Positions 2,485-48,188 of a DNA stretch of 64,000 nucleotides are shown in pieces. The notes beneath the pieces are model-generated. The model was not told where the DNA came from and did no database searches. It saw nothing but the letters and a program-made list of their open reading frames with translations. The translations under genes were made by a program, and so were the position numbers. Position 1 is the stretch's first letter, and the number at the start of each line of letters is the position of its first letter. This DNA is from Acinetobacter venetianus RAG-1 = CIP 110063 (GTDB taxonomy: Bacteria; Pseudomonadota; Gammaproteobacteria; Pseudomonadales; Moraxellaceae): NCBI RefSeq assembly GCF_000368585.1, contig NZ_KB849558.1, forward strand, positions 248,001 to 312,000. Direction: 5' to 3'.

Positions 2485-3234
2485 ATGAAAGCTTTGCGTG
2501 TTATGTTAGCAGCAGGTGCATTAACAGCGATTGCAGGTACTGCATTTGCAGCAGATGAACAAGTTGTGAAGGAATCAGTTTATGCTTTCCCTTCATATTT
2601 AGATCCAGTTTCTGTACGTGCTGAAGTAGGTACGACAGGTTATGGTGGTGCAATCTCATATCGTGTCAATCCTTATGTGGCACTAAGCTTAGGTTATAAC
2701 GGCGGAGATATCTCTTGGTCTGATAGCTTGAAAATTGATGGCACTAAGTATGATATGGATATGGATAATAAAAACGCATATTTAAATGCAGAAATTTATC
2801 CATGGGGTGCGAATGAAAATGCGTTTGCTCGTGCATTATATGTAGCAGCGGGTGTTGGTTATTTAGATAATAGCTATGATTTGAAAAAATCAGTATCTAA
2901 CTCGAACGATACGATTAAAATCGATGGTTCTAACTACTATGCACCTGGCGGCAGTGGTTCTGTAAAAGGTCATTTAAACTATGACAACCAGCTTGCTCCA
3001 TACCTAGGTTTCGGTCTTAACACTCCTGTTTATAAAAACATTGGTGTGTTTGGTGAAGTAGGTGCTTACTATACTGGTAACCCAACTGTTGATCTGAAAT
3101 CAGAAGGTCTGGTAAAAGTTGGTGGTGTTGAGTCAGGTCAATCAGCGGCTGATCGTGAAGCAGATAAAATTGCTAACAAGAGCAAATATGAGTGGATGCC
3201 AGTGGCTAAAGTTGGTGTGAACTTCAAGTTCTAA
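2485..3234 (+). CDS. carO: CarO outer-membrane porin (ornithine/basic amino acid channel family)
   Basis: An outer-membrane beta-barrel of 249 residues. A signal peptide is cut after about residue 22 (TAFA-ADE). The body matches my memory of Acinetobacter CarO at many points: RAEVGTTGYGG, LGYNGGDISW, DGTKYD, YLNAEI-PWGA, GVFGEVGAYYTGNP and YEWMPV-KVGVNF, ending in the terminal phenylalanine typical of barrel proteins. In A. baumannii CarO takes up ornithine, and its loss is linked to carbapenem resistance; transfer of that role to this variant is inference. A strong GAGGAG ribosome-binding site precedes the ATG. The loop regions at about 130-165 and 205-235 look like the variable parts of the family. 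Confidence 0.93.
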   Translation: MKALRVMLAAGALTAIAGTAFAADEQVVKESVYAFPSYLDPVSVRAEVGTTGYGGAISYRVNPYVALSLGYNGGDISWSDSLKIDGTKYDMDMDNKNAYLNAEIYPWGANENAFARALYVAAGVGYLDNSYDLKKSVSNSNDTIKIDGSNYYAPGGSGSVKGHLNYDNQLAPYLGFGLNTPVYKNIGVFGEVGAYYTGNPTVDLKSEGLVKVGGVESGQSAADREADKIANKSKYEWMPVAKVGVNFKF

Positions 3235-3245
3235 ACAACTGGATA

Positions 3246-3276
3246 TAAAAAAACGAGCTTTAAGCTCGTTTTTTTA
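3246..3276 (+). terminator. Terminator of carO
   Basis: Near-perfect inverted repeat (3252-3260 with 3262-3270; the real loop is the central few bases) flanked by an A-run and a seven-T run, 12 bp after the carO stop. Confidence 0.88.
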
Positions 3277-3286
3277 TGATCTAAAG

Positions 3287-3320
3287 AAAACAAAAGGCTT
3301 TTTTATGTACCTTTTGTTTT
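3287..3320 (-). terminator. Terminator of cysB
   Basis: Eleven-base-pair perfect stem (3287-3297 with 3310-3320), 12-nt loop, six bases beyond the cysB stop, with T-rich arms on the minus strand. Separate from the carO terminator, so the convergent genes each have their own. Confidence 0.7.
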
Positions 3321-3325
3321 GTTAT

Positions 3326-4249
3326 TTACTCTTCAGGATAAGCTACTTTTTTAAGTGCTTTAATGTCTGTTTTTGGCGAACATAGTGAAATGAACTCATA
3401 GCCGTAACCACGAAGTAAATGTCCTTTACGAACTGCGATCCACGTTGTGTTTGTACCAAAAATACCTGTTTTGATCTGTTGCAAACGATAATCTCGTTCA
3501 GCATCATAAGCAACATCATTGACAATACCGACACCCATATTTAGCTCAACATAGGTTTTAATAACATCGGCATCTAAAGCAGACATGACGATGTCAGCGT
3601 GCAGATGTGCATCTTCAAATGCTTTGTCGATTTTTGAACGACCTGTGAAGCCACCATGATAAGTAATGAGTGGGTATTCAGCTAAAATGTCGAGACTAAT
3701 TTTATCTAGTTTTGCTAAAGGATGATCTTTCGGGGTGATGATACTGTGGTGCCATTCATAGTAAGGTACGCTCGCCAAATTTTCCTCAGTAGTTAATGAC
3801 TCCGTTGCAATACCAATATCTGCTTCACCCTGTAACAACATTTCAGCAATTTCAACGGGGCTAGCTTGTTGTAGAACCAAATGCACTTTGGGAAATAGTT
3901 TTTTAAATTGGTTCACAATAGGAGGTAAAACATAACGTGCTTGGGTATGTGTCGTTGCAATTGTAAGTGTGCCTTCATCGACTTTATTAAAATCATCGGC
4001 AAGACGTTTGATGTTATCAGCATCAACCAACATACGTTCAACGATACTCAAGAGAGATTGACCTGGCTCAGTTAGTCCAAGTAAACGTTTGCCCTTACGC
4101 ACAAAAAGTTGCACGCCTAATTCATCTTCTAAATCTTTAATGTGTTTACTGACACCTGATTGGGAGGTATAAAGTGCCGCTGAAGCTTCAGTTAAATTAA
4201 AGTTTTGACGAACAGTTTCTCGAATAATTCTGAGTTGTTGAAAGTTCAT
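3326..4249 (-). CDS. cysB: LysR-family sulfur regulator CysB
   Basis: Activator of sulfate assimilation genes, with N-acetylserine or O-acetylserine as the usual co-inducer. The start MNFQQLRIIRETVRQNFNLT was chosen because it is the conserved CysB N-terminus; the frame extends 22 residues upstream without support. The protein is 307 residues. The N-terminal helix-turn-helix is LTEASAALYTSQSGVSKHI, and the rest is the periplasmic-binding-protein-like ligand domain. It lies 75 bp after cysA on the same strand, so it probably shares transcripts with the sulfate transporter genes it should control. Confidence 0.94.
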   Translation of the reverse strand: MNFQQLRIIRETVRQNFNLTEASAALYTSQSGVSKHIKDLEDELGVQLFVRKGKRLLGLTEPGQSLLSIVERMLVDADNIKRLADDFNKVDEGTLTIATTHTQARYVLPPIVNQFKKLFPKVHLVLQQASPVEIAEMLLQGEADIGIATESLTTEENLASVPYYEWHHSIITPKDHPLAKLDKISLDILAEYPLITYHGGFTGRSKIDKAFEDAHLHADIVMSALDADVIKTYVELNMGVGIVNDVAYDAERDYRLQQIKTGIFGTNTTWIAVRKGHLLRGYGYEFISLCSPKTDIKALKKVAYPEE

Positions 4250-4324
4250 AATCATTTTCCACATAAAAGGTGAGGAACGGCTAAAGTTCCGCAAGAACAA
4301 TTTAACCACCCTCAAGGTATTATT

Positions 4325-5395
4325 CTAAGCAACTTGCGTCGTTTGATCTGCAAATAAATGAAGTTGAGTTGCACTTATCCAAACAGTTTGATTTGGTTTG
4401 AATTGGTGTACATTTGCCTCTTCTACACTTAATAAAATTTCAATCGTACGTCCACTACGATCTTGTAATTCAGCAATAACTTTCCCAGCTATCCATACTT
4501 CACGTAGGAAAGTAGCCTCAATGGTGTTGTTGTGAGGTTGGGTATGAATATGTAATTCATTTGGCCTTGCAAATGCAATTACTTTTCCTTGTGGTGCTTC
4601 AACAGTATTTGGAAGCTGAATGCGATTTTCATCGATATGGATAATACCGTTGGAGTGTTCACCTTCAAAGCGATTTGCTTGACCTAAGAAATCAAAAACA
4701 AATGGCGTTGCTGGTTTTTCATAAACTTCTCGTGGTGAGCCAATTTGTTCGACATCACCTTTATTCATGACAATGATTTGATCTGCAACTTCTAAAGCTT
4801 CTTCTTGATCGTGCGTTACAAAGATCGAGGTGATATGTAGCTCATCATGTAAAGTACGTAACCAACGGCGTAATTCTTTACGAACTTTTGCATCCAGTGC
4901 GCCAAATGGCTCATCTAGTAATAAAACACGCGGTTCAACGGCGAGTGCACGTGCTAAAGCGATGCGTTGGCGTTGACCACCTGAAAGTTGGGCTGGATAA
5001 CGGTCTGCTAAAAAGCCAAGTTGAACGAGATCAAGTAAGCGAGTCACACGTTTTTTAATTTCAGCTTCTGATGGGCGTGTTGCACGTGGGCGAACGCGTA
5101 AACCAAAGGCAATATTGTCAAAAACAGTCATGTGGCGGAATAAAGCATAATGCTGGAATACAAAACCTACTTGTCGTTCACGGACGTGAATGTCTGTGGC
5201 ATCTTCGCCTTCAAGTAAAACCTGTCCACCGTCGGCAGATTCTAAACCTGCAATGATGCGTAATAATGTTGTTTTACCGCAACCTGAAGGACCAAGTAAG
5301 GCTACCAATTCACCTTCAGGAAAGTCTAAAGAGATATTTTTCAGCGCATGGAATGCACCAAAGTGTTTTTCAATATTTTTAACTTGAATACTCAT
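4325..5395 (-). CDS. cysA: Sulfate/thiosulfate ABC transporter ATP-binding protein CysA
   Basis: ATPase subunit that powers sulfate import with CysT and CysW. It has 356 residues. Walker [10 protein letters not shown] is at 35-43, the ABC signature LSGGQ at 137-141, Walker B with D-loop [11 protein letters not shown] at 158-168, and the H-loop histidine in VTHDQEEA near 195. The C-terminal part from about 240 is the TOBE-like regulatory domain. All catalytic motifs are intact. It starts 11 bp after cysW, inside the sbp-to-cysB cluster. Confidence 0.96.
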
Positions 5396-5406
5396 GTGCT
5401 TATTCC

Positions 5407-6306
5407 TTAGTGGCTAGGTTGATTTTGATTGGATTGATGTTCATTTGCTTGGTCTTGGCGAGCTTCAAGCCAAGTTTTTAAAATTAATGTAATGATTGCT
5501 AGAAATGCCAATAGTGAAGACACAGCAAATGCAGCACTAAAAGTGTATTCGTTATAAAGAATTTCTACATGTAAAGGTAAGGTATTGGTTTGACCACGAA
5601 TATGCCCTGAAACAACTGAGACCGCACCAAATTCACCCATTGCACGGGCATTACACAGAATCACACCGTAGATCAAACCCCATTTGATATTAGGTAAGGT
5701 TACTTTCCAAAAGGTTTGCCAACCTGAAGCACCCAGTACTATCGCTGCCTCTTCCTCCTCTGTGCCTTGAGCTTCCATCAAAGGGATTAATTCACGGGCT
5801 ACAAATGGAACGGTAATGAAAATAGTGGCTAATACAATCGCTGGGATGGCATACAAAATTTTGATGTCATGATCCATTAACCAGCCACCCATCCAACCTT
5901 GTGTGCCAAAGATCAGAACTAACATTAATCCAGCAATCACAGGTGATACCGAGAAAGGCATATCAATGATGGTGGTTAAGATGGCTTTACCGCGGAACTG
6001 AAATTTTGCAACGGCCCATGCTGCTGCAACACCAAACACGACATTAATAGGGACGGCAATTGCAGCCGTAATTAGGGTAAGTTTTACAGCTGATAAAGTA
6101 TCTGAATCGGTTAACGCATTGATATAAACCGCTAAACCTTGTTTAAATGCTTCAACAAAAACCAAAATCAGCGGCAAGATCAAACAACTGAGGAAAAAGA
6201 TTAAGGCAACGCTGATTAGGCTAAGACGAACCCATGTCGGTTCGCGAGTTGCATCTCGACTTTGAAGTTTGAGAACTAAAGCATTGCTGTTGGTATTTAG
6301 ACTCAT
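5407..6306 (-). CDS. cysW: Sulfate ABC transporter permease CysW
   Basis: One of the two membrane permeases of the sulfate importer. The start at 6306 was chosen because its ATG overlaps the cysT stop in an ATGA arrangement, implying translational coupling; the open frame extends 11 residues further without support. The 299-residue protein has about six hydrophobic helices and the cytoplasmic EAA loop ([19 protein letters not shown]) that docks on CysA. Confidence 0.95.
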
Positions 6307-7136
6307 TGTGCAACTCTCCCAGTGCGACGGCTCGCCCATGCTTGTACTAAGTTAATTAAAAATAGAATGGCAAATGACAGAATGAGCATGACTACGGCAA
6401 TGGTCGTTGCACCTGCGTAATCATACTCCTCTAAGCGAGAGATGATCATCAGGGGGGCAATTTCAGTTTTATAGGGTTGATTGCCTGCAATAAAAATCAC
6501 GGAACCGTATTCACCGACACCGCGGGCAAAAGCTAAAGCGAACCCAGTGAGCAATGCAGGGAATAGTATTGGTAAAATGATTTTGGTAATCGTCTGCCAA
6601 CGATTTGCACCTAGGGCAGAAGCGGCTTCTTCCAGTTCAGTTTCAATATCACTGAGTACTGGTTGAACAGTACGAACCACAAAGGGTAGACCAATAAAAA
6701 TTAGAGCAAGGGTAATACCAATTGGTGTATAAGCCACTTCAATCCCAAGCGGAGAAAGATATTGTCCAATCCAGCCTGTTGGTGCATATAAAGAGGTGAG
6801 TGCAATACCTGCAACGGCAGTTGGTAGAGCAAAGGGCAAATCAACTAATGCATCAACAATCCGTTTACCTGGAAAGCTATAACGTACTAAACACCAAGCC
6901 AGTAACAAGCCAAAAATAACGTTAACTAGTGCAGCGATTAATGCAGCACTAAAGCTAAGCTGTAAGGACTTTAAAATTCGTTCTGAAGTTAAAATTTCCC
7001 ATAAGCCATCCCACCCAATTCCAAAAGATTTGATAAAGACAGCAGATAAAGGAATAAGCACAATCAAAGACACGTAAGCGAGGGTAAAGCCTAATGATAG
7101 ACCAAACCCAGGCAGCACTCGGGAACGCTGCGACAT
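6303..7136 (-). CDS. cysT: Sulfate ABC transporter permease CysT (CysU)
   Basis: Second membrane permease of the sulfate importer, 277 residues with about six transmembrane helices. The EAA loop reads [20 protein letters not shown], followed by conserved [21 protein letters not shown]. Its stop overlaps the cysW start by 4 bp. It lies 75 bp after the small hydrolase gene. Confidence 0.95.
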
Positions 7137-7211
7137 GATATTTCCTCAAAGAGAAATGTTTGCTAAAACAAGCAAATAAATAATACGAATACTAAAAACA
7201 CGAGAGTAAAG

Positions 7212-7814
7212 TCAGGCAAATTTCAAATTAAAATTTGCCTGACTCATTCGAGGGATTGGCAGCATCTTTTTTTCAGGCAGCAAGTAGTTCAGGATCTCAG
7301 GGAAAGGGCCAAATCCAGATGCGACATTGATATGACCAACAGCACCTAAATTGATTGGGGTTAGTTTCCAAGCCTGAGCAAGTTGTAGAGCATCGGCATA
7401 ACCTAACCACGGATCATTTTCACTAATCAATAATGTGGTAGGTACGTCAATTTTAAGTTGATGAAAATATCGCTTGTAATCAGTCAAACTATGACGAGCG
7501 AAACCTGATTCACCAAAACGTGCAGGATTTGCAGGCGCAACCAAAATTAGATTTTTCACTTTTGCTCTGAGTTCTGGGTGTTCAGAGAGTGCGGCAACAC
7601 TAGTTAAACAACCAAAACTATGCGCAACAATTTGAATAGGTGCTGGAGCTGCAACAATAGTTTTAATAAATTGAGTAACCCATTCACTTAACACAGGGCG
7701 ATCCCAATGAGTTTGTTCAACGCGAGAACTAGACACGAGCTTATGTTGTAACCAAGACTGCCAATGTTGTGCTTCACTACCGCCAACACCGGGAACAATT
7801 ACAGTATGAATCAT
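7212..7814 (-). CDS. RBBP9/YdeN-type alpha/beta hydrolase
   Basis: A 200-residue serine hydrolase of the RBBP9/YdeN family; the substrate is unknown. The start MIHTVIVPGVGGSE was chosen because a strong AAGGAGAA ribosome-binding site precedes it; the frame extends 25 residues upstream without support. The expected triad is visible: Ser in VAHSFG, Asp in SENDPWLGY, His in GAVGHINVASGFG. It sits between the sulfate-binding protein and the permease genes, on the same strand, which hints at a role in sulfur supply such as ester hydrolysis, but this is only inference from position. Confidence 0.85.
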   Translation of the reverse strand: MIHTVIVPGVGGSEAQHWQSWLQHKLVSSSRVEQTHWDRPVLSEWVTQFIKTIVAAPAPIQIVAHSFGCLTSVAALSEHPELRAKVKNLILVAPANPARFGESGFARHSLTDYKRYFHQLKIDVPTTLLISENDPWLGYADALQLAQAWKLTPINLGAVGHINVASGFGPFPEILNYLLPEKKMLPIPRMSQANFNLKFA

Positions 7815-44737: not shown

Positions 44738-44944
44738 TTATGCTTTTAAATGATCTTCGAATTCTTCGCCAAGTTGCATGGCTAAAGCATTACCAGAAAG
44801 ATCACAAGTCACCAAACCATATTCTTTTTTAAAACTAAAAGTAAAGCCACGATTGTCTGCTAAGTTTTTAACTGAATATCCTAATTTCTCTAACCAAATA
44901 CGAAAAGCGACTAAATTCTTTGCTTTAACAACTCTGTTTTTCAT
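44738..44944 (-). CDS. 68-residue conserved small protein, unknown function
   Basis: MKNRVVKAKNLVAFRIWLEKLG at 44944 was chosen as start because AAGGAG lies 8 bases upstream; the frame runs 23 residues further without support. The 68 residues are basic at the N-terminus and acidic at the end (EEFEDHLKA), with no signal peptide or membrane helix. RIWLEKLGYSVKNLADNRGFTFSFKKEYGLVTC suggests a compact alpha/beta fold. I do not recognise the family. Confidence 0.62.
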   Translation of the reverse strand: MKNRVVKAKNLVAFRIWLEKLGYSVKNLADNRGFTFSFKKEYGLVTCDLSGNALAMQLGEEFEDHLKA

Positions 44945-45240
44945 AGCAGAACTCCTTGTGAACTTGTAATTATTAATAAGGGTGTCTTGAAAATTTTTAA
45001 AGGGGTGATGCATATATTTATTTTTCGGCTTGTAAATATTGTAAAACTGAAGTAATCAAAAAAGATTGGTTTAAAAATTAGATTTTATATGTACTTGTAT
45101 TTTAATTATAAAATTAACGTTGGTCGCAAAATAAGCAATTGCTATTGTTAAGTTTTTCGTATTTTAAGATGTAAAAAATAATTTCATTTTTCACTTTATT
45201 GCTAAAGTGAAAAATGAGTACCCAGCGAGGAAGTTCTTGT

Positions 45241-46341: not shown

Positions 46342-47328
46342 ATGTCTGATTTGGTAGATCATGAAGTTGTTGTTATCTTCAAAAAATATTTACACCCTTT
46401 GTCTGCCAAGCTTACCGAAATGTTGAATGAGCACTTTAGTCACCAAACTGAGCGTCGGGGCTGTGGTTATACTCAAGCAACACGGGTGATTGCAGAATTT
46501 GTTTCTCAACCGCGTGATCTGATCGGTTTTCAAGACTTTAGAATTTTTGAAGAATATGAAACCAAGGGTTTAAAGAATATTTTAAATCAAGCTTCTTTAT
46601 ATGGTTTGGAGCTAGGAACTTGGCGCAATTTGGACACCAATCCAGAGGTGAAAACTTGCCTAGGAAAACTCAATTCGCAAGAAACGTTTGCACAAAATTT
46701 AAAGCAGGAAGTTGATTTTCAAGCGACTTTAAGAACCTTGTATCAACATGCTGAACTTGAAGAAAGTATTTTAATTTGTCAGTTACTCGCGGATATTATT
46801 CTCCCGCAAGATGCTAAAAATTTAGAAATGATTGAGTGTGAGTCTTTGGAGGAAAAGCCAAAAGTAGGCTCATGTCCAATGGCGGAAAAATTCTTCTTAC
46901 GTATTGCACATCATCGGTTACTCAGACAAGGTGAAATCAATATCTTTGTAGATGAGCAAGACCAGCCTATTATGATGGAAAAGATGAATATGGGTGACAA
47001 TCACTCCTGTATCAGCTTAGTGCCGTTAATGATGAATGGGGTAAGGTTACCTGCAGGGAGTCTATTTTCTGCAAATTATGATTTAGATCACTTGGACAAA
47101 CATCAGAATCAGCAATACAAAGGTTATGTCATTCCTATTTCACAAATGAACGGTTTTTGGTTTTTACGGTTAACCACTTTAGCTGTTTCTCCGCAAAATC
47201 GTGCGCGTGCATTTGGTTATCATTTTAAACAGCAAGTGGATAATGGGTTGTTCCGACCAGATACAACTGAGTTGAGCCAACTCATGGAAATTGCTCAAGA
47301 TCAAATATGCGTAGGACATCCATGCTAA
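46342..47328 (+). CDS. Unrecognised 328-residue protein coupled to a deacetylase-family gene
   Basis: I do not recognise this family. The protein is soluble, with no signal peptide or membrane helix, and is rich in Leu, Glu and Gln. It starts MSDLVDHEVVVIFKKYLHPL after GAGGGAAG. The first half (to about 165) looks largely helical. The second half, from GSCPMAEKFFLRIAHHRLLRQG on, looks more beta-rich, with clustered cysteines (CPM, NHSCISL and a C-terminal CVGHPC). Its last 7 bases overlap the deacetylase-family gene, so the two are translationally coupled and probably act together. Confidence 0.7.
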   Translation: MSDLVDHEVVVIFKKYLHPLSAKLTEMLNEHFSHQTERRGCGYTQATRVIAEFVSQPRDLIGFQDFRIFEEYETKGLKNILNQASLYGLELGTWRNLDTNPEVKTCLGKLNSQETFAQNLKQEVDFQATLRTLYQHAELEESILICQLLADIILPQDAKNLEMIECESLEEKPKVGSCPMAEKFFLRIAHHRLLRQGEINIFVDEQDQPIMMEKMNMGDNHSCISLVPLMMNGVRLPAGSLFSANYDLDHLDKHQNQQYKGYVIPISQMNGFWFLRLTTLAVSPQNRARAFGYHFKQQVDNGLFRPDTTELSQLMEIAQDQICVGHPC

Positions 47329-48188
47329 AAGCTTGTTATTCTCCGCGCTATTATGCCCAAACGCATACCAACAGCATGGAAAAATTGACCGCAGTTGCGG
47401 ATGTACTGTATGAAAATAAAATGGTTGAGCTCATTGATCCTGGAATGATTGATGTAGAAATTTTAAAGAAATTGCACAATCCGCAATATGTTGAAGCTTT
47501 TATCTCAGGTGAATCTGCTTTTGCCACGGTGCAAGGATTTAAACCTTGGAATACGCAATTACGTGATGCGATTTTATCCGTTCAGGCGGGGCAGTTATTG
47601 GGAGCGGAAATCGCATTAAAAGAGGGTATTGCTGCAAATATTGCACAGGGCTTTCATCATGCAAGTTATGAGTCAGGCGCTGCATATTGCACATTCAATG
47701 GTTTAGCGCTGGTAGCAAAGCAACTCCCTGAAAAAAGAATCTTTATTTTGGATTGCGATCAGCATGGTGGCGATGGTACAGCAATATTTACCAACCGAAT
47801 GACCAATCTAGTCAACTTTGGGATTTTTGGTATCCGTTTCGGCTGTAAAGCGAATGAACGCAGTCTGACCCGATATATTCATCCAAAACAAGGTAATTTT
47901 GATCTCTATCGAGAAGCGATCTTTGAAGCGTTTAATTATGCTTCCCGTTGGGAGGCGGATCTTATAATTTATCAAGCAGGAATGGATTGTCATCAACTGG
48001 ATAAATATGGTTCTAAATGGTTTACAACAGAGTTGTTGTTTGAACGAGATCGATTGGTTTTTGAAATGGCAAAAAAAATGAAAATTCCGATGTTGTTTGT
48101 ATTGGCGGGGGGATATCAGGAGCTTGAGGATTTAGTTCCATTGCATGTCAATACATTCAAGGCTGCGAACGAAATCTACTTTCCATAG
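47322..48188 (+). CDS. Histone-deacetylase-family zinc hydrolase
   Basis: Member of the arginase/HDAC fold family that removes acyl groups from lysine, acetylpolyamines or similar amides. It has 288 residues. The catalytic pieces are present: His-His 112-113 (GFHHASYESGAAYCTFN), Asp144 and the zinc ligands Asp146 and His148 (DCDQHGGDGT), Asp222 (AGMDCHQLD) and Tyr265 (LAGGYQ). ATG 47322 with AGGA was chosen; ATG 47307 is possible. The substrate cannot be told. It overlaps the upstream unknown gene. Confidence 0.87.
   Translation: MLKACYSPRYYAQTHTNSMEKLTAVADVLYENKMVELIDPGMIDVEILKKLHNPQYVEAFISGESAFATVQGFKPWNTQLRDAILSVQAGQLLGAEIALKEGIAANIAQGFHHASYESGAAYCTFNGLALVAKQLPEKRIFILDCDQHGGDGTAIFTNRMTNLVNFGIFGIRFGCKANERSLTRYIHPKQGNFDLYREAIFEAFNYASRWEADLIIYQAGMDCHQLDKYGSKWFTTELLFERDRLVFEMAKKMKIPMLFVLAGGYQELEDLVPLHVNTFKAANEIYFP

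Follow-up and report, generated by a model that had tools for sequence, protein, structure and literature searches.

To our knowledge, most of what is known about Group 3 MglA systems comes from genome surveys. They have been described as beta/gamma-proteobacterial systems comprising MglA, one or two MglB proteins, and an unknown protein with a receiver-like N-terminus and a wHTH-like C-terminus, and their MglA carries GTPGQ in G3, a G4 that often lacks Lys, and DAR in G5 (Wuichet and Sogaard-Andersen 2014, PMC4316618). The available text of that paper mentions no HDAC or ORF1-like partner (see below) for Group 3 systems, and the words “deacetylase” and “Acinetobacter” are absent from its main text. 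The actinobacterial conservons (CvnA-D; Group 2 MglA) resemble the genes studied here in that small GTPase, roadblock, and unknown protein genes are grouped (PMC4316618). Among deacylases, the lysine de-decanoylase VcHdaH of sub-cluster 5b favours a negatively charged residue at position -1 (PMC11532494), and AcuA/AcuC, which control acetyl-CoA synthetase through lysine acylation, include an HDAC-family eraser encoded with a partner (PMC11532494, PMC13121692).

We analyzed a stretch of 64,000 nucleotides from Acinetobacter venetianus (the window) and found a two-gene pair, ORF1 and HDAC, that is constantly together and tracks a GTPase module; the pair therefore looks like an undescribed enzymatic arm of a Ras-like GTPase switch. 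The module consists of a Ras-like small GTPase, the two roadblock/LC7 proteins RB1 and RB2, and a protein that we call X. The tie to this module, which is encoded elsewhere in the genome, lies beyond the view of the window alone. Among the literature titles and abstract openings listed, mainly of open-access papers, none reported an association between ORF1/HDAC and the module.

Both genes of the pair lie on the forward strand. ORF1 (46342-47328, 328 aa) represents a family without annotation whose constant neighbour is the HDAC gene (47322-48188, 288 aa), which encodes a putative Zn-dependent deacylase of the HDAC family (PF00850). The ORF1 stop and the HDAC start overlap by 7 bp in ATGCTAA (47322-47328, +), and a Shine-Dalgarno-like AGGA (47313-47316, +) lies 5 nt 5' of the HDAC ATG. 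The ATG at this start opens ML[KQN] in 69 of 71 loci; starting from an alternative ATG in the same frame, at 47307, the protein would have 293 aa. Of the 69 Acinetobacter genomes with the pair, 25 show the exact 7-bp overlap, 42 have a gap of 2-17 nt between the genes, and 2 have both genes broken. Compared with six relatives, ORF1 gave pS values of 0.745-0.786 and dN values of 0.077-0.125, and HDAC gave dN/dS values of 0.03-0.04 wherever dS could be computed (four of the six comparisons). Purifying selection is strong on both ORF1 and HDAC.

The HDAC protein matched PF00850 over a span covering the domain (E 9.4e-29, 101.1 bits; cut-off 27.9). The His112-His113 pair (47655-47660, +), the predicted zinc ligands Asp146-x-His148 (47757-47765, +) and Asp222 (47985-47987, +), and Tyr265 of the GGY motif (48114-48116, +) were kept in all 11 aligned pair-associated HDACs. 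Judged by the residue roles given for HDAC-family deacylases (PMC11532494, section 6), the active site is complete in sequence and deacylase activity is predicted. The best PDB sequence match was chain 9gkv_B (E 4.8e-31), which belongs to VcHdaH (PDB 9GKV/9GKY). Both proteins have the HDAC domain, His-His, the zinc ligands, and GGY; unlike VcHdaH, the window HDAC has HGG rather than HHG after the zinc His, NGL rather than NDL, and ORF1 as a partner. DCD[QE]HGG and NGL are common to the 11 aligned pair-associated HDACs, which come from two orders, whereas DLDVHQG and NDL stand in their place in four HDACs whose records or genomes lack ORF1. Because of this difference, the pair-associated HDACs appear to form a recognisable subfamily within this small sample. 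Two Novosphingobium records with HDAC relatives (32-34% identity) had no annotated ORF1-like neighbour, and no ORF1 was found in them by search. An alignment-free AF2 model of HDAC was of low quality (pLDDT 40).

Full-length ORF1 was present in 69 of 149 Acinetobacter genomes, and HDAC was present in the same 69, adjacent and on the same strand in every one. Raw tallies in the 149 genomes were 71 for ORF1 and 76 for HDAC, from which weak or fragmentary matches were left uncounted (ORF1 in G042 and G074; HDAC in G007, G032, G040, G075, G097, G103, and G140). Weak ORF1 matches in G042 and G044 were rejected, as they lay inside other ORFs, which presumably encode MocR-like regulators; G063 gave a similar weak match. 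Both genes were encoded at all 71 loci collected, some of which represent one genome from two sources. A second ORF1-HDAC copy was observed in one genome (L078, G142:C1:2503000-2511000, 3205-5076), with ORF1 split over two frames and HDAC open.

The initial annotation had described a 328-residue protein overlapping by 7 bases a complete HDAC gene with zinc and catalytic residues, and had taken this coupling to imply a joint role. The overlap and the completeness of the enzyme were confirmed as described above, and co-occurrence across genomes speaks in the same direction: the two genes were never apart in the 69 Acinetobacter genomes that have them and also stay paired in a different order of bacteria, so the two genes are not routinely separate elsewhere. 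A joint role is thus strongly supported.

The surroundings of the pair varied. Among 41 named loci (38 from Acinetobacter and 3 from MAGs), the window neighbours were kept at 23, with eight or nine of nine genes probed, and not at the other 18; 17 of these have none of them (one, L065, spans just 4.7 kb), and metN alone is retained at L068. We therefore rejected the glyoxalase II and metNIQ genes on the flanks as partners. The three MAG loci (L065, L067, and L068) lie outside named Acinetobacter. On the A. wuhouensis conjugative plasmid p1_010062 (L091, NZ_CP033119.1, 8996-15327), the pair lies between IS3-type and IS1595 transposase genes, and RB2-X-RB1 is found approximately 2 kb from it. 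The varied neighbourhoods and the plasmid copy indicate that the pair moved, or its surroundings were rearranged, as a unit. In the window, a 91-aa ORF between ahcY and gloB (44738-45013, -) had a homologue in 23 of the 41 named loci and no Pfam match at E<=1.

ORF1 relatives were found in 1 of 72,556 plasmid records, and IMG/VR viral contigs contained no ORF1 relative. Outside the genus, the pair was rare: no relative was found in a further 243 genomes from the window's order, of which nine belong to its family. When 299 genomes of the phylum were searched with a profile, a single strong but distant ORF1 relative emerged, in a genome of another order (G747, E 1.2e-64); six further matches at E<=1 all had E >0.05. 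When the G747 ORF1 was used as a query against 200 genomes of its order, 8 genomes matched, 7 of them with full-length ORF1 (G747 included). A partial match in G1041 (E 6.2e-5), with no module gene or HDAC nearby, was not counted.

In the window genome, the module lies on another contig than the pair (G000:C2), in the order RB2-X-GTPase-RB1. The GTPase scored above the ATP_bind_1 and Ras cut-offs. RB1 passed the PF03259 (Robl_LC7) cut-off of 23 with 23.4 bits, and RB2, with 18.0 bits, was below it. X gave a weak C-terminal HTH_40 match at 250-283 (E 0.0083), and X of G915 had no HTH_40 match in Pfam. The GTPase carries GTPGQ in G3, a non-canonical THVD in G4, and DAR in G5; the corresponding motifs were GLPGQ and DAR in G747 and GTPGQ and DVR in G915, and therefore not all GTPase members are canonical. 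The module thus fits a Group 3-like MglA system when assigned by motifs and gene content: it shares the GTPase, the roadblock proteins, the presence of an unknown protein, the G3/G4/G5 motifs, and the beta/gamma-proteobacterial setting. It differs in the addition of the two-gene ORF1-HDAC pair, which may sit at another locus. Conservons carry a histidine kinase; the labelled module genes here include none, and the ORF1-HDAC pair comes in addition. A second X-GTPase pair was found in the window genome (L220, G000:C3:1794000-1808500, 6078-7618), with no roadblock neighbours detected.

RB2 matches were found in 95 of the 149 Acinetobacter genomes. The pair and RB2 occurred together in 68 genomes (G106, with a stop in its RB2, among them), the pair alone in one (G015), RB2 alone in 27 (including G060 and G114, in which RB2 is broken or partial), and neither in 53. 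In the other order, 42 of 200 genomes contained RB2, comprising 7/7 genomes with full pairs vs 35/193 of the others. Fisher tests of pair against RB2 gave p values of 1e-18 (Acinetobacter) and 1e-5 (other order), with the kinship of these related genomes ignored. The pair-bearing genomes are therefore nested in the RB2-positive ones (68/69 in Acinetobacter and 7/7 in the other order), and the 27 RB2-positive genomes without the pair indicate that the pair is optional. A GTPase search in 27 chosen genomes found the GTPase in 7/7 RB2-positive genomes (in G115 as two pieces) and not in G015; in RB2-negative genomes it gave 2/19 matches, a short fragment (G018) and a 36% relative (G022). The module GTPase of G115 (L160, G115:C10, 4134-5996) is split by a 402-aa ORF, which we take to be transposase-like.

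The pair and the module are also physically linked in both groups. In the other order, all six genes (RB1, RB2, X, GTPase, ORF1, and HDAC) lie together at five of seven loci (G747, G982, G929, G915, and G893, where X was detected by protein comparison), and G883 has five of the six, with RB1 not detected. In G922, the pair contig starts just before ORF1, and a separate contig carries RB1, GTPase, X, and, at its end, RB2; the locus is thus cut by contig ends, which may hide a linkage. Two gene orders were seen: RB1-RB2-X-GTPase-ORF1-HDAC in G747, G982, and G893, and RB2-ORF1-HDAC-X-GTPase-RB1 in G915 and G929. Within Acinetobacter, the pair lies beside the module in at least 9 of 69 genomes, RB1 being undetected in three of them (G011, G107, and G052) and in pieces in G120. 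Module and pair are arranged tail-to-tail, with RB2 within approximately 80 nt of HDAC, in G016, G034, G011, G107, G120, G052, G065, and G066; in G088, all four module genes are on the strand of the pair and start 1.7 kb downstream. Among the matches listed, no RB2 lies beside the pair in 60 of the 69 genomes.

The internal integrity of the reading frames was checked in all 69 Acinetobacter pairs. ORF1 was broken in two genomes (G015 and G106), and HDAC was broken in these two and in G117. The genomes in which both pair genes are broken are exactly the two of 69 in which RB2 is absent (G015) or broken (G106); in the other 67, the best RB2 match had no stop. G015 had neither an RB2 nor a GTPase match, and since its assembly consists of 210 contigs, the absence of RB2 may be an assembly gap. 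In G106, the locus with stops in RB2 and X lies approximately 360 kb away from ORF1-HDAC; its GTPase and RB1 are open, as is a further GTPase-RB1 copy, which is accompanied by a partial X. In contrast, G117 has a broken HDAC with ORF1 and the module intact, and in G115 the pair is intact although the GTPase is interrupted and a search of the genome revealed no further one; both count against a tight dependence of the pair on the module.

We consider it somewhat probable that ORF1 and HDAC serve as an accessory enzymatic arm to a module of the Group 3 MglA type, which they would place under reversible covalent control. This proposal is based on the constant pairing, the varied neighbourhoods, the co-occurrence with RB2, and the clustering in two orders with differing gene orders, together with the joint loss of pair and RB2 function in two genomes and the completeness of the HDAC active site. 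As expected from its enzyme family, HDAC would remove an acyl group from an amide, probably on a lysine of a module component, and the genomic context points to a module protein as the substrate. Given the link to the module, a protein seems a more likely substrate than a free polyamine. The initial annotation had envisaged an acyl-lysine or acetylpolyamine processing pair in which ORF1 would supply or recognise the substrate, and as a whole its interpretation is partly supported.

RB2 would be the leading candidate substrate, because its presence tracks the pair and because it is highly conserved. RB2 shares 73-82% identity with that of G747 at the five remaining linked loci of the same order. 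Lysines K53, K75, and K114 are near-invariant (kept in 98-100% of an alignment of the reference and 42 distinct sequences), and K114 is preceded by an acidic residue. This count includes RB2 copies unlinked to a pair, and the conservation of the lysines may therefore have other causes. The net outcome of the proposed mechanism would be a GTPase switch under reversible covalent control.

The pair might instead be a stand-alone small-molecule amidohydrolase acting on an N-acylated polyamine or amino-acid metabolite, with its link to the module reflecting co-inherited accessory islands. Polyamine deacylases do occur among bacterial HDAC-family enzymes (PMC11532494); moreover, the pair is not beside the module in most Acinetobacter genomes, among the matches listed, and G115 retains it despite the interrupted GTPase. 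Such a reading is unlikely, however, as the pair clusters with the module in two orders in which the gene orders differ, and as pair and RB2 are broken at separate loci in G106.

In an alignment of 22 ORF1 sequences drawn from the two orders, the invariant positions are His34, ERRGCG (37-42), TQATR (44-48), Trp94, Cys178, Glu182, Glu213, Lys214, and His221. The Cys41 codon (46462-46464, +) lies within the motif ERRGCGxTQATR, directly before a predicted helix; the Cys178 codon (46873-46875, +) lies in GSC; and the His221 codon (47002-47004, +) specifies a candidate catalytic or metal-binding His. The initial annotation had recognised nothing in this protein, and this holds for NCBIfam, PHROGs, and PADLOC, in which no match was found at E<=1, but Pfam gave a sub-threshold match to phytochelatin synthase (PF05023; E 0.0059, 16.3 bits, curated cut-off 24.9). 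The structure and profile searches that it had suggested yielded no confident fold match. The AF2 model of ORF1 (pLDDT 85) had no Foldseek match at E<=0.001 and no VIA match above Z 3.4; a Nudix-like fold at approximately 193-326 was considered and rejected, since it appeared in weak rows only (Z 2.0-3.2). PDB sequence searches with ORF1 and with the A1 profile returned nothing at E<=10, and the A5 profile returned one row (E 1.5).

ORF1 could also be read as a non-enzymatic metal- or ligand-binding regulator that gates HDAC or tethers it to RB1 and RB2. The invariance of His34, Cys41, Cys178, and His221 in 22/22 sequences would suit such a role, as would the lack of a confident match to a solved fold; however, ERRGCGxTQATR with Cys41 before a predicted helix also suits a catalytic Cys, and we give the regulatory role a low probability.

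In the preferred reading, an enzymatic arm of the GTPase switch, ORF1 would be a dedicated partner of HDAC that either installs the acyl group by means of Cys41/His221 or presents the substrate. AcuA/AcuC would be a parallel, although no GNAT model was found among the Pfam matches of ORF1, and the target here would be the GTPase module, not AcsA. The boldest form of this proposal is a writer/eraser pair in which ORF1, as a new Cys-His acyltransferase family, would acylate RB2 at K53/K75/K114, or the GTPase, with a long-chain group that the translationally coupled HDAC would remove; we regard this specific form as doubtful. Lysine fatty acylation is known for small GTPases in animal cells, and the writer/eraser pair, if real, would be a bacterial parallel to it.

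The resemblance concerns the N-terminal half of phytochelatin synthase. Phytochelatin synthase has a catalytic Cys-His-Asp triad in a papain-like fold, and enzymes of its type are presumably peptidase C83. PF05023 matched 11 of the 24 ORF1 members of alignment A1 at E<=1; in a further scan, 7 of 22 members matched, and the ORF1 members of G747 and G915 gave no match. Among ten members scanned singly, three matched at E<=0.01, and L058 alone exceeded the cut-off (27.0 vs 24.9 bits); one other member matched an unrelated model (E 0.0046). In hhalign comparisons, Cys41 fell on a conserved Cys column of phytochelatin synthase with P 0.0072 and 0.006 at a probability of 5-6%; with distant ORF1 members added, the probability was about 1% (P 0.056), and an HDAC control gave P 0.72. 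The likeness is weak and lies around Cys41 (CGxxxAxxV-I). The second half of phytochelatin synthase, with its conserved His/Asp, found no match in the ORF1 profile alignment, the C-terminal region of ORF1 differs, and although Cys41 aligns, there is no Asp at the phytochelatin synthase spacing after His221. PF05023 also matched an ORF elsewhere in the window genome (L085, G000:C3:1541270-1541476, E 4.8e-4), which we take to encode a MerR-like regulator, a warning about weak PF05023 matches of similar strength. We thus treat the resemblance as a weak lead rather than as family membership, and given the unmatched His/Asp half, the missing matches in G747 and G915, and the lack of a confident fold match, the notion that ORF1 is a genuine enzyme of the phytochelatin-synthase type, using glutathione-like thiols as substrates while HDAC trims the product, is very improbable despite the Cys41 alignment and the score of L058.

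If confirmed, our proposal would mean that a Ras-like switch in bacteria is controlled through covalently attached acyl groups, and ORF1 would gain a role in it that can be tested. A deacylase of known chemistry and inhibitor class, encoded with an unannotated family, may also provide an experimental handle on Group 3 MglA systems, with four candidate protein substrates.
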